Shown here: positions 3,697 through 29,763 of the stretch, in pieces
How the letters are laid out: the number at the start of each line of letters is the position of its first letter
Position numbering within the stretch: position 1 is the first letter of the stretch
From: a virus
IMG/VR virus record: IMGVR_UViG_3300010885_044930
Location: 1-29,763 of that record
Reading direction: 5' to 3' (one strand)
DNA: 29,763 nt
Made by a program: the position numbers and the translations under genes
Notes under the pieces: generated by a model
Told to the model about the DNA's origin: nothing
Seen by the model: the letters and a program-made list of their open reading frames with translations, nothing else
Database searches by the model: none

Positions 3697-4707
3697 ATGA
3701 ATTTAGTTCAAAAAGCCGTTGAAAACGGTGGTAAATTAGCTCCTTTGGTTATAAAAGAAGGTTTAAGTAAAGGTACGGGATTAATGAATCCCTCAATATT
3801 TATAGATGACAATGGAGATATATTAGTCAATCTACGCCATGTTAATTACACACTTTATCATTCAGAGAATACTCAGAAGTTCCCGTCAAGATGGGGACCA
3901 TTGTCATATCTTCATCCAGAAAAAGATATTAACCTTAGAACAACTAACTATTTGATGAAGCTTGACAAAGACCTTATGGTTACTAATCACACACTTATTG
4001 ATACCTCAGAACTAGATGTTGAACCTTTGTGGGAATTTGTTGGTTTAGAAGATGCTCGTTTAATTAAATGGGATAATAAATATTATGTTTGCGGTGTTCG
4101 CAGAGATACCACTACAAATGGTGTAGGGCGTATGGAACTATCTGAGTTAAATATTGATATGGATAATTTTACTGCTAAGGAAGTGTCACGTCTTAGAATT
4201 CCCGCTCCAGGTAATGATAATTCATATTGCGAAAAGAATTGGTATCCAGTATTAGATAAGCCTTATCATTTTATTAAATGGACAGCACCTACAGAGCTTG
4301 TAAGAACTTATCCAGATGAACCAGCAAGATGCGAACAGGTATTTCATAGAGATAGTCTTAAAGTTCCTGCAGATCAAAGAGGTGGTTCTCAGTTAATTAA
4401 GTTTGGCAACCTATATCTTTCTGTGACACATGAAGTAAATCTGTTTCATAATTATTTAAGTCAAAAAGATGGCATTTATCGTCATCGCCTATGTGTTTGG
4501 GATGATGACCTAAACCTTGTTGGAATTTCACCAGAACCTTTTTCTTTCTTAGATGCAAGAATTGAATTTGCGGCAGGTGCAGCAATTTTAAACGGGGACC
4601 TACTAATCTCATTTGGATTTCAAGATAATGCAGCATTTATATTAAAGGTTCCAAATGTAATATTAAATGAAATGGTGCAGGAGGCATTGTCATATGAATT
4701 CAATTGA
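3697..4707 (+). CDS. GH130/GT108-like beta-propeller protein (glycosidase, phosphorylase or glycosyltransferase)
   Basis: A 336-residue protein with the look of five-bladed GH43/GH130-type propellers. The signatures are an early NPSI strand (31-34), GLEDARL (116-122) resembling the EDPR motif of GH130 mannoside phosphorylases, CEKNWYPV (178-185) resembling the EKNW motif, GGSQLIKF...THE (229-246), and a late AAGAAI...GFQDN segment (292-311). GH130-like propellers act on mannosides; the related GT108 enzymes transfer mannose. Which activity applies here, and on what acceptor, is not decidable from sequence. It leads a three-gene cassette with a TPR protein and an FkbM methyltransferase, each overlapping the previous gene by 14 nt. 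This suggests coordinated modification of a glycan or a virion glycoprotein. The start lacks a Shine-Dalgarno and sits 6 nt after a -10-like box. Confidence 0.7.
   Translation: MNLVQKAVENGGKLAPLVIKEGLSKGTGLMNPSIFIDDNGDILVNLRHVNYTLYHSENTQKFPSRWGPLSYLHPEKDINLRTTNYLMKLDKDLMVTNHTLIDTSELDVEPLWEFVGLEDARLIKWDNKYYVCGVRRDTTTNGVGRMELSELNIDMDNFTAKEVSRLRIPAPGNDNSYCEKNWYPVLDKPYHFIKWTAPTELVRTYPDEPARCEQVFHRDSLKVPADQRGGSQLIKFGNLYLSVTHEVNLFHNYLSQKDGIYRHRLCVWDDDLNLVGISPEPFSFLDARIEFAAGAAILNGDLLISFGFQDNAAFILKVPNVILNEMVQEALSYEFN
4678..4684 (+). promoter_or_regulatory. Ribosome-binding site deciding the TPR gene start
   Basis: CAGGAGG inside the end of the propeller gene stands 9 nt before ATG 4694. It favours that codon over the upstream in-frame ATG at 4667, which has no such signal and would add nine unconserved-looking residues (MKWCRRHCH). 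Confidence 0.7.
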
Positions 4708-5266
4708 GAGTTTAATTGAAGCAGCATCTCACGATATGTTTAATCCAGTATTAAACTTTGAGATTGCTAAAAAATACGAGGAGCTAGAGCAAACAGCTTC
4801 TGCCGTATCATTTTATTTAAGAGCAGCAGAATATGGATATGAAAGTAATCCAGTAATTGTTTATACATCTTTAATTAAAATGGCCCATTGTTTTGAAGAT
4901 CAATCAGGAAGAGAGCATAGTGTAAGTAATGCTCTGCTTCAAGCTATTCAATATATGCCTGCAAGACCAGAAGCTTACTTTTTACTTTCCCGTTTTTATG
5001 AAAGATCTCAAAAATGGCAAGAGTGTTACACATTTGCAGAAATGGGAATGATGTATACAACCAGACTTGATAAACTTCCTGCTGATGTTGAATATCCAGG
5101 AGCATTTGTATTATTATTTGAAAAAGGCGTAAGTGCTTGGTGGCTGGGAAGAAAAGAAGAATCTTTAGAGATATTTAAAAATTTGCTAGAACAAGATATT
5201 CCAGATTATTATCGTTCTACAATTCAATATAACATAGATAAGATATCTCCAAATGCTACTGTTTGA
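4694..5266 (+). CDS. TPR-like helical repeat protein
   Basis: This is 190 residues from ATG 4694, chosen because of the CAGGAGG at 4678-4684; a longer form from 4667 is possible but less likely. The protein is helical and contains tetratricopeptide-like pairs: EIAKKYEELEQTASAVSFYLRA near residue 25, RPEAYFLLSRFYERSQKWQE near residue 90, and FEKGVSAWWLGRKEESLEIF near residue 145. Such TPR segments are often fused to or encoded beside glycosyltransferases in bacterial and viral glycan loci, where they bind partner proteins or peptide substrates. No catalytic motif is visible. It overlaps the propeller gene by 14 nt and the methyltransferase gene by 14 nt, so translation is probably coupled. An accessory or scaffold role for the neighbouring enzymes is inferred. 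Confidence 0.7.
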   Translation: MNSIESLIEAASHDMFNPVLNFEIAKKYEELEQTASAVSFYLRAAEYGYESNPVIVYTSLIKMAHCFEDQSGREHSVSNALLQAIQYMPARPEAYFLLSRFYERSQKWQECYTFAEMGMMYTTRLDKLPADVEYPGAFVLLFEKGVSAWWLGRKEESLEIFKNLLEQDIPDYYRSTIQYNIDKISPNATV

Positions 5267-15117: not shown

Positions 15118-15152
15118 GTATAATAAGAATATAATAAAAGGAGGTAAGTAAT
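15118..15152 (+). promoter_or_regulatory. Putative promoter and leader with strong RBS
   Basis: CAGTATAATA (-10 box TATAAT, 15119-15124) is followed by an A/T-rich leader and AAAAGGAGG, then ATG 15153. No -35 box is clear. The same CAGTATAATA-leader-GAGG layout precedes ATG 21609, so the two probably descend from one duplicated control region. Confidence 0.5.
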
Positions 15153-15524
15153 ATGGCACATTGGGCCGAATTAGATGAAAACAATATTGTAACTCGTGTA
15201 CTTGTTGGAGATAATAATGATCCAGCAGGAGATGAAGGATATCAATGGTTAATTGACAATCTAGGAGGTAAATGGGTAAAAACTTCCTATAATACAATTG
15301 CAGGACAACATACTTTAGGCGGGACCCCGCTAAGAGGTAACTATGCAGGAATAGGCTATTCATATAATGAAGAGTTAGATGCTTTTATCCCGCCAAAACC
15401 TTTTGAGTCTTGGACATTAAATACAGAAAAATTTAACTGGGATTCACCAAAAGCATATCCAACAGATGGCAAATTCTATACATGGGATGAAGCAGATCAA
15501 AATTGGATTGAGGTAGCAGAATAA
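15153..15524 (+). CDS. Small conserved phage protein, MAH..LDENN family (copy 1)
   Basis: A 123-residue protein with a strong AAGGAGG RBS. It belongs to a family of small acidic, Trp-rich proteins common in aquatic phages: MAHWAELDENNIVTRVLVGD, then a WVKTSYNT / NYAGIGYSY core, then IPPKPFESW, then a closing YTWDEADQNW. The function is not established. These genes typically sit next to fibre genes. The 23207 product is a full-length paralogue and the 15524 product resembles only its C-terminal third. The stop overlaps the next start (TAATG). Confidence 0.8.
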   Translation: MAHWAELDENNIVTRVLVGDNNDPAGDEGYQWLIDNLGGKWVKTSYNTIAGQHTLGGTPLRGNYAGIGYSYNEELDAFIPPKPFESWTLNTEKFNWDSPKAYPTDGKFYTWDEADQNWIEVAE

Positions 15525-19988: not shown

Positions 19989-21548
19989 GTGCCTTTAGAC
20001 AAAGCAAATAAACTCTCCAATGATTCTTTAAAAACTCCATATATAAATATTGGTAATAAAGTTGGAGAATTAGGGCAATCTGTTGCTACTATTTATTTTG
20101 GTTTAAATAGTAATAGACCAACTAATCCATTAATTGGAGATCAGTTTTTTCAAACACAAAGTCAAGAATTACAAATTTATACAACAAATGGCTGGGTTCC
20201 AGTAATGACAAAACCATCTGCTCCAATAGGTGTGGTTGCTTCAAATAATCCTGTAATATATGGTGGGATTCCATCAGCATCTATAAGCTTTATACCATCA
20301 AGCTCTGATTCTCCAGCAAATTTATATACAGTAACATCAACACCAGGCTCCTTAACTGCAACGGGAACATCTTCTCCAATTACAGTAAACGGACTCACTG
20401 CTGGAACATCATATACGTATACTGTAACAGCTTCAAATAGTTATGGTTCTTCTACATCTTCTCCAAGTTCTGCGGTAATTGCAGGAACAATTTCACAACC
20501 GCCAACTAATGTATCTGCTTCTGGGAACAATACTTCAGCTACAATATCATTTACAGCACCTTCAAATGTTGGAGCTTCCCCAATAACATCTTATACTGTT
20601 TATTCATCTCCAGGAAATTTTTTTAATACGGCAGCATCTTCGCCAATAACAGTTCAATTTTTAACTAATGGTACACCTTACACTTTTACTGTAGTTGCAA
20701 ACAATAATGCTGGATCTTCTGTTTTATCACAAGCAACATCTCCAGTTACTCCAAATGGAATATCAACCGCAACGGGAGGAGCACCATCTCAAGATGCAAC
20801 TTATTACTATAGAACTTTTACTGGAAATGGAAATTTTGTTGTAGGTTTAACTGCACTAACAGTAGACATTTTAACAATTGCAGGAGGGGGATCTGGTGGT
20901 TCTAACATGTCTGGTGGCGGTGGTGCAGGTGGAGTTTTATATTCTTCAACACAAGTTTTACCAGTTGGTTTAACAGCTGTAACAATTGGAGGAGGTGGAG
21001 CCGCACCAGCAAATGATTCATGGGCCGATGGAAGGCCAGGCACAGATTCATCAGTAGGATCTTTTATAGCAAAAGGCGGAGGCTATGGTGGGGGTTATGG
21101 TGGAAATGGTGGAAATGGTGGTTCAGGAGGCGGATTAGGCTGGGTAGGTACAGTGCAAGGTCTTGGAACCACTGGTCAAGGAAATAATGGTGGAGCTGTA
21201 ACTGCTAATGGAGGATCAACTGGTGGCGGCGGAGCAGGAGGACCAGGTGGTGGAGGTTCTGGAGGTTACTATGGAACTGGCGGTCCTGGAGGTTCAGCAA
21301 CATATGCTTATTCATCATGGGCTTCAATAACGGGCACTGGAGTTGGCGGAGGTTACGCAGGCGGCGGCGCAGGAGATTCATATTCTTATGGCTCTGGTGG
21401 CGGAGGTGGTGCAGGTGCAAACGGTAGCAATGCTACTCCAAATACGGGTTCTGGCGGCGGTGGCGGTGGATATGGCTACACACAAATTAGTGGTGGTGCT
21501 TCAGGAATTGTAATGATAAGATTTACAAGAGCACAACTTGGTGGATAA
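19989..21548 (+). CDS. Modular adhesin: fibre module + two FN3 domains + glycine-rich tip (copy 1)
   Basis: A 519-residue protein starting at GTG 19989, supported by AGGGGAGGG four bases upstream and by alignment of its N-terminus with the 21609 product (LSNDSLKTPYINI versus VSNDSLVNPYINI). Residues ~42-75 carry the NRPTNPLIGDQFF ... NGWV fibre motif. FN3-like domains lie at ~77-168 and ~172-262. The remainder is a Gly-rich tip (VDILTIAGGGSGG ... TPNTGSGGGGGGYG ... SGIVMIRFTRAQLGG). The first FN3 unit is strikingly close to those of the 11066 product. It is a receptor-binding candidate. Confidence 0.78.
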   Translation: MPLDKANKLSNDSLKTPYINIGNKVGELGQSVATIYFGLNSNRPTNPLIGDQFFQTQSQELQIYTTNGWVPVMTKPSAPIGVVASNNPVIYGGIPSASISFIPSSSDSPANLYTVTSTPGSLTATGTSSPITVNGLTAGTSYTYTVTASNSYGSSTSSPSSAVIAGTISQPPTNVSASGNNTSATISFTAPSNVGASPITSYTVYSSPGNFFNTAASSPITVQFLTNGTPYTFTVVANNNAGSSVLSQATSPVTPNGISTATGGAPSQDATYYYRTFTGNGNFVVGLTALTVDILTIAGGGSGGSNMSGGGGAGGVLYSSTQVLPVGLTAVTIGGGGAAPANDSWADGRPGTDSSVGSFIAKGGGYGGGYGGNGGNGGSGGGLGWVGTVQGLGTTGQGNNGGAVTANGGSTGGGGAGGPGGGGSGGYYGTGGPGGSATYAYSSWASITGTGVGGGYAGGGAGDSYSYGSGGGGGAGANGSNATPNTGSGGGGGGYGYTQISGGASGIVMIRFTRAQLGG

Positions 21549-21608: not shown

Positions 21609-23207
21609 ATGGCTATAGATAAACCACAAAATGTATCAAATGATTCTTTAGTAAACCCTTATATAAATATTAATAGTGTTCCAAGTCAGCTTGGAGGATC
21701 AGTATCAACATATTTATCTGGAGCAACTGCAAATCGCCCAGCAACATCACTAATTGGAAATTTATACTATAATACTACATTAAATGAATTGCAACAATAC
21801 ACAATAAATGGATGGGTTTCATTGGGTTTAATTCCATCTGCACCAACATCAATAACTGTATCAAATGATTCAATTGCATATGGTGGTACTCCAGCCGCAA
21901 TAGTTTCTTTTATTCCAGCAAATACTGGTACGCCAGCAGGCTATTATAGAGTTACAACAACTCCAACAACATCAACTGTTACAACTACAAATACAACAAT
22001 TAGTTTTTCAGGTTTGACTGCTGGAACAGCATATACTTTTAATGTGGTTGCAGGAAATACATATGGAATTTCTTCAAGTATTACAAGTTCATCATTAACT
22101 GCAGGAACCTTATCGCAACCACCAACTGGGCTTACAGCTACAACAAGTAATAGAAATGCAACAATATCTTTTACCGCACCTTCAAATACTGGTGCAGCTC
22201 CAGTTACATCTTATACAGTTTATTCAAATCCAGGAAATATTTCAGCTTCTGCTGCATCTTCCCCAATAACAATTTCAGGCTTAACGTTTGGAACACCATA
22301 TACTTTTACAGCAGTTGCAAACAATAGTGCAGGATCTTCAGTTTTGTCAACACCTTCAAATCAAGTAACACCTTCGGCTATTACCGCACCAGCGACAGTA
22401 GAAGTTTTAGTTGTTGCTGGTGGCGGCGGTGGTGCAGGAGGAACAGGTTTTGAAACTGGTTCAGGAGGAGGTGCTGGAGGATATCGTTATTTTGCAGCTT
22501 ATTCGCCACCTTCTAATTCCTTAACGGTAACTGTTGGAGCAGGCGGTGCTGCGGTAGTTACTGGAAATCAAGGAAATAGAGGAAATAACTCAGTATTTGG
22601 AACAATAACAGCAACATACGGCGGAGGCGGTAAATATTATTCAACAGCTGGAGAAGCTGGCGGTTCAGGTGGTGGTGGAGCACCTTCAGGAGGTGCAGGA
22701 AATCTTGGTAATTACACACCATCAGAAGGTAATGCAGGATCAGGATATTCTCCAGGTGCGGGGCCAAACACTCTAGGCGGCGGTGGTGGCGGAGCAACCC
22801 AAGGAAATCCAGGTCACAGCGGCGGAGCTGGAGCAACTTCAACAATTACTGGCCCATCAGTTAGTTATGCAGGCGGAGGCGGAGGCGGATCTGGTTGGGA
22901 CACTGGAAATAATCCTGGTGCTGGCGGTTCAGGCGGCGGTGGCACTGGAACTTTTGTTTCCACTGCAGGCTCTGGAACTCCAAACACAGGCGGCGGCGGA
23001 GGAGCAGTAGGACAAACTTTTTCAAATACTGGAACATTTTCTGCGGGAGCTGGTGGCTCTGGTGTAGTAATTATTGCATATCAATCTGCAGGAACATCCC
23101 CATTAGCAACAATTGATGCTGGTTTGACATATACTTTAGACACTACAACAAGATCTGGATATAGAATTTATAAATTTACAGCTGGAACAGGGGCGGTAAG
23201 CTGGTAA
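21609..23207 (+). CDS. Modular adhesin: fibre module + two FN3 domains + glycine-rich tip (copy 2)
   Basis: A 532-residue paralogue of the 19989 product with the same order: an N-terminal VSNDSLVNPYINI segment, NRPATSLIGNLYYNTT ... NGWV (~42-75), two FN3-like domains (~77-165 and ~170-262), then a glycine-rich domain from VEVLVVAGGGGGAGG (~268-475) with SGTPNTGGGGGAVG. Unlike copy 1 it adds a ~55-residue C-terminal extension (LTYTLDTTTRSGYRIYKFT). The glycine-rich halves are far more different than the FN3 halves. This fits divergence of the receptor-contact part after tandem duplication. The stop overlaps the next start (TAATG). Confidence 0.78.
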   Translation: MAIDKPQNVSNDSLVNPYININSVPSQLGGSVSTYLSGATANRPATSLIGNLYYNTTLNELQQYTINGWVSLGLIPSAPTSITVSNDSIAYGGTPAAIVSFIPANTGTPAGYYRVTTTPTTSTVTTTNTTISFSGLTAGTAYTFNVVAGNTYGISSSITSSSLTAGTLSQPPTGLTATTSNRNATISFTAPSNTGAAPVTSYTVYSNPGNISASAASSPITISGLTFGTPYTFTAVANNSAGSSVLSTPSNQVTPSAITAPATVEVLVVAGGGGGAGGTGFETGSGGGAGGYRYFAAYSPPSNSLTVTVGAGGAAVVTGNQGNRGNNSVFGTITATYGGGGKYYSTAGEAGGSGGGGAPSGGAGNLGNYTPSEGNAGSGYSPGAGPNTLGGGGGGATQGNPGHSGGAGATSTITGPSVSYAGGGGGGSGWDTGNNPGAGGSGGGGTGTFVSTAGSGTPNTGGGGGAVGQTFSNTGTFSAGAGGSGVVIIAYQSAGTSPLATIDAGLTYTLDTTTRSGYRIYKFTAGTGAVSW

Positions 23208-28276: not shown

Positions 28277-28310
28277 TAAGCACTGTAAATTATGAGTTAA
28301 TTATAAACAC

Positions 28311-28330
28311 TGCTATTATTTAGATTACAT
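28311..28330 (+). promoter_or_regulatory. Putative extended -10 promoter before the protease gene
   Basis: TGC-TATTAT (28314-28319) stands 11 nt before ATG 28331 in a 54-bp gap, with no Shine-Dalgarno between them. A transcript from here would have a leader of only a few bases. No clear -35 or terminator is visible in the gap. Confidence 0.4.
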
Positions 28331-29707
28331 ATGGAACTACAAAAAACGTACTGGCAAAACAGCGAATCATCAATGGCCTTGTCCTTTCCTATTGCAAAGG
28401 TTAACAAGGAAAAAAGAACCGTATCTGGATTTGCTTCACTAGATAACGTAGATCGTCATGGAGATATTGTAACTGCTGACGCAAGCAAAAAAGCTTTTGA
28501 AAATTTTAGAGGAAACATTCGTGAAATGCACGGTCCATCTGCTGTAGGCAAGATGATTGATTTTAAGGAAGATGCTTTCTTTGATAAAGCTTCTGGTAAA
28601 AAGTATAGTGGCGTTTATGTCACAGCATATATTTCAAAGGGTGCACAAGATGCTTGGGAAAAAGTTCTTGATGGCACATATTCAGGTTTCTCAATTGGCG
28701 GAAACATTGTAGATGCAAAAATGGAAAAAGCAGACGGCGGGGATGAAGAACGTAGAGTTATTCATAACTATGATCTACATGAATTATCATTAGTAGACTC
28801 ACCAGCAAACCCACTTGCTAATTTCTTTTCTATTCAAAAGATGGCAAAAGCCATGACACTAGAAAATGTTTACTGGTGTAAAGAAGATGAAGTTGCATCA
28901 ACATCTATTGAAATTCAAAAGAATTGCTCCGTATGCGGAGATCAAATGACAAACGTAGGTTGGGTAGAACAAGCAGACTCAGAAAAGTTTGAAGCAATTG
29001 AAAAAGTAATTGATTCTTATTTTAAGAAAGATGATGCCCCAGCTTCAGATCACGCTGCATTAGAAACAGCAGCTCCAGGAAATGTAATTGATAGCAAGTC
29101 AGCAATCAATCTTTATCCAGATCAAAATAAAACAAAAAAGGTTTCGCCTATCACAGTTGATGCGGCGACTATAAAGAAAAATGAAGGAGGAAATGAAATG
29201 ACAGAAGAAACAAACGCAGAAGTAGCTCCAGAAGTTACTGAAGTTGAAACTCCAGCTGTTGAAGAAGTAGCGGAAGTTACAGAAGCACCAGCAGTTGATG
29301 CAGGAGAGGCAATCGAAAAAGCTGTTGCTATTTCAGAGGTTGAGGATACACTTGATTTCACAAAGATGGTAACTGACCTTAAGACCTTCTTTAATGATTC
29401 TATCGAAAAGAATTATGCAACCCATGCAGCAACAGTTCAAGATGTTTATCGCATTGTAGAGGAAACAAGGGCAGAAATGTCAAAGGCGATTGACGAAATC
29501 AAAGCTAAGCATGAAGAAATCAATAAATCAATCACGGATATGTACGGAAAGATTGACTATGTTGATAATAAGCTGAACGGATTTGAATCCGCAACAGCAG
29601 TTAAAAAGTCCAGTGATCTTAATGGATCATTGGAGCAAGAAAAAATCCAAAAAAGTATATGGCAAGGACACTTCCTCGGTGTTAATAGCTTAACTAAAAA
29701 TCTATAA
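28331..29707 (+). CDS. XkdF-like prohead protease with C-terminal scaffold domain
   Basis: A 458-residue protein. Residues ~15-170 form a prohead serine protease of the XkdF/HK97 group: VSGFASLDNVDRHGDIV (31-47), catalytic-type His67 in MHGPSAVGKM, a serine in TYSGFSIGG (S118 or S121), and the ELSLVDSPANPLA strand (151-163). A linker (~175-290) carries an isolated CSVC at 199-202. Residues ~290-345 are extremely acidic (Glu/Val/Ala/Pro), and ~345-425 form a heptad-rich coiled coil (LKTFFNDSIEKNY ... VDNKLNGFE). This layout fits a protease fused to a scaffold: it shapes the procapsid, then cleaves capsid and scaffold proteins. A strong internal RBS precedes Met290, so the scaffold may also be made alone. 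The capsid gene follows. Confidence 0.85.
   Translation: MELQKTYWQNSESSMALSFPIAKVNKEKRTVSGFASLDNVDRHGDIVTADASKKAFENFRGNIREMHGPSAVGKMIDFKEDAFFDKASGKKYSGVYVTAYISKGAQDAWEKVLDGTYSGFSIGGNIVDAKMEKADGGDEERRVIHNYDLHELSLVDSPANPLANFFSIQKMAKAMTLENVYWCKEDEVASTSIEIQKNCSVCGDQMTNVGWVEQADSEKFEAIEKVIDSYFKKDDAPASDHAALETAAPGNVIDSKSAINLYPDQNKTKKVSPITVDAATIKKNEGGNEMTEETNAEVAPEVTEVETPAVEEVAEVTEAPAVDAGEAIEKAVAISEVEDTLDFTKMVTDLKTFFNDSIEKNYATHAATVQDVYRIVEETRAEMSKAIDEIKAKHEEINKSITDMYGKIDYVDNKLNGFESATAVKKSSDLNGSLEQEKIQKSIWQGHFLGVNSLTKNL
29183..29190 (+). promoter_or_regulatory. Strong internal ribosome-binding site inside the protease gene
   Basis: GAAGGAGG, a near-perfect Shine-Dalgarno, stands 7 nt before in-frame ATG 29198 (Met290). 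It is far stronger than anything preceding the full-length start at 28331. An earlier out-of-frame ATG at 29193 stops after two codons. Confidence 0.7.
29198..29707 (+). CDS. Predicted nested scaffolding protein, in-frame within the protease gene
   Basis: A putative 169-residue product from Met290 of the protease frame to the shared stop. It starts MTEETNAEVAPEVTEVE, an acidic low-complexity stretch of ~55 residues, then the coiled-coil region and a short basic tail (VKKSSDLN ... EQEKIQKSIW). The length, strong acidity, coiled coil and basic C-terminal segment fit scaffolding proteins, which bind capsid subunits through the C-terminus. Genes that encode a protease and, from an internal start, its scaffold are known (lambda C/Nu3). 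Evidence here is the GAAGGAGG at 29183-29190 and the domain boundary falling exactly at this codon. Expression has not been shown. Confidence 0.6.
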   Translation: MTEETNAEVAPEVTEVETPAVEEVAEVTEAPAVDAGEAIEKAVAISEVEDTLDFTKMVTDLKTFFNDSIEKNYATHAATVQDVYRIVEETRAEMSKAIDEIKAKHEEINKSITDMYGKIDYVDNKLNGFESATAVKKSSDLNGSLEQEKIQKSIWQGHFLGVNSLTKNL

Positions 29708-29731: not shown

Positions 29732-29763
29732 ATGAGTAATGAACTATTACAAAAAGTAATTGA
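29732..29763 (+). CDS. Start of probable major capsid protein gene (3' truncated)
   Basis: ATG 29732 follows AAGGTGGTGA (29714-29723), a good RBS at normal spacing, 24 nt after the protease stop. Only ten codons are visible (MSNELLQKVI). The identity is inferred from position: in most tailed phages the major capsid gene follows portal and protease/scaffold. The residues themselves do not prove it. Confidence 0.55.
   Translation, partial: MSNELLQKVI

Follow-up and report, generated by a model that had tools for sequence, protein, structure and literature searches.

In a 29,763-nt stretch of viral DNA (IMG/VR record IMGVR_UViG_3300010885_044930, positions 1 to 29,763; hereafter the window), one open reading frame appears to encode two proteins with a shared C-terminus: a protease-scaffold fusion and, nested within it, a shorter protein that would be the bulk scaffold. 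We hold this explanation as a whole with good confidence. In the proposed scheme, an upstream promoter would start an almost leaderless mRNA, and ribosomes would begin at an ATG at 28331 that has no Shine-Dalgarno sequence (SD), giving the 458-aa fusion. A strong and unstructured SD at 29184–29190 of this mRNA would load ribosomes at the ATG at 29198, giving a 169-aa acidic scaffold. The short form, as bulk scaffold, would assemble the major capsid protein encoded next, while the long form, co-assembling via the scaffold part common to both, would bring the protease into the prohead for later removal of the scaffold. The features are listed in Table 1. The full-length ORF matched PHROG 9427, a head maturation protease family, with E=5.8e-116.

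Table 1. Features of the protease-scaffold region, in window coordinates
Feature	Positions	Strand	Properties or evidence
Promoter-like block, AAATTATGAGTTA-N11-TGCTATTATTTA	28287..28322	+	Conserved motif in relatives' upstream sequences
Full-length prohead protease-scaffold ORF	28331..29707	+	458 aa, 50.5 kDa; ATG without SD
Protease domain, residues 26–172	28406..28846	+	Pfam, fold match, invariant H67 and S121
Linker, residues 233–341, holding the internal start	29027..29353	+	pLDDT below 50; low conservation
Internal Shine-Dalgarno sequence, AAGGAGG	29184..29190	+	Conserved; surroundings predicted unstructured
Nested scaffold gene (putative), ATG at Met290	29198..29707	+	169 aa, 18.7 kDa, pI 4.5
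Long helix, residues 343–427, likely coiled coil	29357..29611	+	AlphaFold2; profile matches
C-terminal tail ESxTAxKKSGD...W-x-G-x-F-L, residues 419–449	29585..29677	+	Conservation
Start of major capsid gene, own SD-like AAGGTGGTG	29732..29763	+	Cut at window end

The internal start signal and its conservation

A preliminary description of this DNA had placed a near-consensus SD 7 nt before an in-frame Met290, and this is what the window contains: GAAGGAGG at 29183–29190 is followed, after 7 nt, by an ATG at 29198–29200, which is codon 290 counted from 28331. The plus strand of the window contains the heptamer AAGGAGG only twice; the other copy, at 15138, is the SD of the gene that starts at 15153. 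The ORFs of the window contain 214 internal NTG codons in frame; three of them are preceded by GGRGG at the spacing of an SD, and one of the three probably marks the real beginning of its gene. Elsewhere in the window, the gene listed at 4667–5266 begins with an ATG lacking an SD, and its in-frame ATG at 4694, with AGGAGG ~9 nt upstream, is probably the true start. Folding predicted that the 60 nt around the internal SD are unstructured. We also considered a switch in which the SD would be hidden; since folding gave no structure in these 60 nt, no such switch is supported.

The 320 sequences fetched yielded 222 distinct proteins whose C-terminus is complete. One pattern in the first search for relatives was KNEGGNEM, the peptide lying over the SD. 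For this reason, we searched again, using queries from four lineages that covered the protease alone; most of the 222 relatives came from these, and the conservation result was unchanged. A site was defined as GG[A/G]GG located 4–13 nt before an in-frame ATG, GTG or TTG. An SD and in-frame start so defined were found in the same post-protease linker in 216 of the 222 relatives, with ATG in 155, GTG in 60 and TTG in one, and with a spacing that is mostly 7, 8 or 10 nt. As background, the same genes contain 2,799 further NTG codons in frame, and only 5 of them have such an SD. The preliminary description had expected the internal SD and Met290 to be conserved, and had named homologues that keep the scaffold region and lose the signal as evidence against it; the signal is retained at the frequency just given, with a start codon that varies among the three.

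The relatives outside the 216 differ in kind. One (L283) has a slightly shorter SD, AAGGAG, 9 nt before an ATG, and another (L078) is a 5'-truncated sequence whose site is present and went uncounted as an artefact of the analysis. Three (L094–L096) are from distant Brevundimonas and Vibrio phages of other families; this C-terminal part is absent or different in them, and they were not used as tests. The last (L105) reads AAT GAA GTA GGT AAT TAA ATG, with the SD core altered. In this relative (3799–3880 of its contig, IMGVR_UViG_3300032218_003413), an in-frame stop TAA abuts the internal ATG (TAAATG), and the contig ends soon afterwards. Barring a sequencing error, the arrangement is suggestive of a natural fission, in which a separate scaffold gene would be translated through termination-reinitiation.

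The same internal site is present in Stanwilliamsviridae of Streptomyces and in Rhodococcus phages, at 32–43% identity. In Loccivirinae, AAGGAGG stands 7 nt before the start, whereas in Boydwoodruffvirinae and in Weaselvirus (Rhodococcus) GGAGG stands 10 nt before it; the start in these phages is GTG or ATG. The signals and their conservation are thus directly visible, and from them we take it as nearly certain that the internal start at Met290 is real, although initiation there is itself predicted from sequence.

Selection at the internal start

The EGGNEM peptide is common to most close relatives, as would be expected if only the full-length protein were made and the SD-like sequence were a by-product of a conserved Glu-Gly-Gly linker peptide. 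However, while the SD is read as E/K/Q-G-G (EGG type) in 159 relatives, in 57 a different frame runs through it and yields K/E-E-x (KEV, KED or KEE), which largely refutes this explanation. Val also substitutes for Met solely as GTG (60 of 60 cases, although only 404 of the 8,577 codons for Val in these genes are GTG), the linker around the SD is poorly conserved, and synonymous reshuffling of codons is expected to preserve only about a quarter of the sites (~56 of 216, versus 216 observed). The two SD frames, the GTG-only Val and the reshuffling argue that selection acts on the start signal rather than on the peptide, and a peptide by-product is very improbable. Synonymous entropy across 14 conserved Gly columns is lowest at Gly286 and Gly287, with Gly286 encoded by GGA or GGG only. 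A tree built from 143 protease domains shows the site persisting through at least 17 changes of its class, as set by frame, start codon and spacing. The position of the SD in an inter-domain linker would also fit a programmed ribosome pause that separates the folding of the two domains, without initiation. A pause needs no start codon, yet ATG, GTG or TTG is kept within the narrow range of distances described above, and we regard a pause as the least probable reading of the site.

The protease domain

The N-terminal part is an XkdF/S78 protease with the herpesvirus-assemblin/T4 gp21 fold. It matched Pfam families PF14550 (XkdF; 31.4 bits, cut-off 24) and PF04586 (22.6 bits, cut-off 21), both above their cut-offs, bearing out the earlier assignment to an XkdF-like protease. 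When the full AlphaFold2 model was searched against the PDB with Foldseek, no significant match was returned, while matches in BFVD were to XkdF and prohead proteases. A second structural aligner matched model residues 22–172 to T4 gp21 (5jbl; Z 10.7 over 120 residues) and to herpesvirus proteases (assemblins; Z 8–10). Residues H67 and S121 are invariant in 95 sequences and, by analogy with the family, are presumably catalytic. Just after the protease domain, a cysteine knuckle (C183, C199 and C202; 28877–28942) is found in most relatives and is lost in L283; it is a possible metal site.

The short product and its place in the head module

AlphaFold2 gave a confident model for residues ~30–220, disorder over residues 233–341, and a single helix from 343 to 427. 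The acidic segment begins just after Met290, and the long helix only at about residue 343. Met290 lies within the disordered stretch and therefore starts an acidic disordered segment, not a coiled coil. The preliminary description had put Met290 at the turn from linker to an acidic coiled-coil region; the acidic segment is indeed there, but the coiled coil is not. Profile searches against solved structures gave coiled-coil matches mainly in the helix region. Residues A423, K426, S427, G446 and F448 are invariant in the tail, making it a candidate for coat binding, for cleavage, or for both. This make-up, an acidic and disordered segment followed by a long helix and a conserved tail, is as expected of a scaffold.

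The next gene in the relatives encodes the major capsid protein. In one complete relative (L012:4409-5542), Phage_capsid matches the 377-residue product from residue 37 onward, so that a long HK97-type delta scaffold domain of ~100 residues on the capsid protein is unlikely, judging from the sequence match; a predicted structure of this protein (pLDDT 42) was too poor to judge a delta domain. In the records examined for Streptomyces and Rhodococcus relatives, the head module has no separate gene annotated as a scaffold. Those records annotate a single 'capsid maturation protease' or 'head maturation protease', and the nested product is unannotated. Also in the window, neighbouring paralogues at 19989–21548 and 21609–23207 contain fibronectin type III and glycine-rich domains and are likely tail fibre components; the former has a GTG start after a strong SD.

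The internal start could be used to make a protein that is not mainly a scaffold, for example one that regulates the protease or serves as its decoy substrate, a tag for encapsidation or a minor component of the head. In keeping with this, searches with the short product matched no known scaffold family significantly, phrog_73 being found only at E=0.0084. Against it, the gene for the short product lies directly before the major capsid gene, in a head module with no other annotated scaffold gene, the product is acidic, disordered and helical with a conserved tail, and the protease-scaffold ORFs of lambda and Mu share the layout (PMC8508860, PMC4378225). We consider such a different role improbable; the short product is very likely the scaffold, with its scaffold activity predicted from this context and make-up.

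The full-length start and a promoter-like block

No SD is visible at the full-length start at 28331, as had been noted earlier, and the same holds among the relatives: an SD of 5 nt was found at this start in 2 of 175 and was lacking in 173. A strongly conserved motif, AAATTWTGnnTTA-N11-TGnTATTATTTA, ends just before the start in the upstream sequences of 68 distinct relatives. In the window, the corresponding block at 28287–28322 scored 46.2 bits, versus 4.3 bits for the next best site, and it comprises a -35-like element (TTATGAGTT, 28290–28298) and an extended -10 element (TGCTATTAT, 28311–28319). Under a strict pattern, the block occurs zero to two times per record of 49–132 kb. A -10 hexamer matching in at least five of six positions and lying 6–11 nt before the start was found in 141 of 176 relatives, from all lineages, versus 10% in shuffled sequences. 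The block was found only from the relatives' upstream sequences; a generic sigma-70 scan showed no promoter excess and missed it.

We infer from its sequence that the block is a promoter, probably a dedicated head-gene promoter that gives a near-leaderless mRNA, because it is highly conserved, is essentially unique in the window and has its -10 hexamer only 6–11 nt before the start. By standard promoter geometry, the leader would be ~0–5 nt, and a near-leaderless mRNA would explain the missing SD at the full-length start. The closest isolated relatives infect Actinobacteria, and in mycobacteria leaderless initiation is both frequent and efficient (PMC4633059). The full-length start may be of this leaderless type and perform well in an actinobacterial host. 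The asymmetry in SD between the two starts is real and conserved, but because a leaderless start need not be weak, we only infer the large excess of scaffold over protease that the preliminary description had predicted. That this actinophage group sets its protease:scaffold ratio on one mRNA, by pairing a near-leaderless protease start with an SD-led internal scaffold start, seems to us about an even chance. If true, the scaffold:protease ratio could shift with the state of the host ribosomes.

Discussion

Nested scaffolds that share a C-terminus with a protease are known from several systems. In herpesviruses, UL26/UL26.5 combine an assemblin-fold protease with a nested scaffold that has the same C-terminus and is made from its own mRNA. 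The gene described here has the same combination of assemblin fold and nested, C-terminus-sharing putative scaffold, but it has an internal SD and presumably uses one mRNA. The lambda protease differs in family: C is ClpP/SppA-like, whereas the protease here is S78/XkdF-type with the assemblin fold. Otherwise the likeness to lambda C/Nu3 is close, since in lambda a scaffold is made in frame from an internal start in the protease gene, beside the capsid genes and with shared C-termini (Shaw and Murialdo, 1980, as cited in PMC8508860). The preliminary description had proposed the lambda solution with an XkdF-like protease, which the layout, the conserved start and the Pfam matches support. Mu I/Z and gene 27 of the Pseudomonas Mu-like phage PaMx73, where the internal start is Val177 with a 9-nt spacer (PMC4378225), likewise have an SD-led in-frame start inside the protease gene. 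They belong to another phage lineage, and here the SD of the full-length start is replaced by a promoter-like block; the present comparison also examines conservation across 222 relatives.

The nested layout is therefore known from lambda C/Nu3 and Mu I/Z, and it is found here in a new and widespread family. What is novel, as far as sequence can indicate, is its pairing with a predicted near-leaderless protease start. The 'capsid maturation protease' of Stanwilliamsviridae and Weaselvirus is homologous over its whole length or most of it and has the same internal SD and start, yet the records examined annotate a single protein, without the nested product. We found no description of an internal scaffold start in Stanwilliamsviridae in the openly accessible literature. 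The homologous gene occurs in >100 GenBank genomes of Streptomyces phages and in many hundreds of environmental contigs. The putative nested gene would supply the missing scaffold for a large actinophage family and correct its annotation. The nested-scaffold solution is strongly kept while the surrounding protein sequence drifts, and the predicted combination of a leaderless and an SD-led start on a single mRNA can be put to the test in this family.
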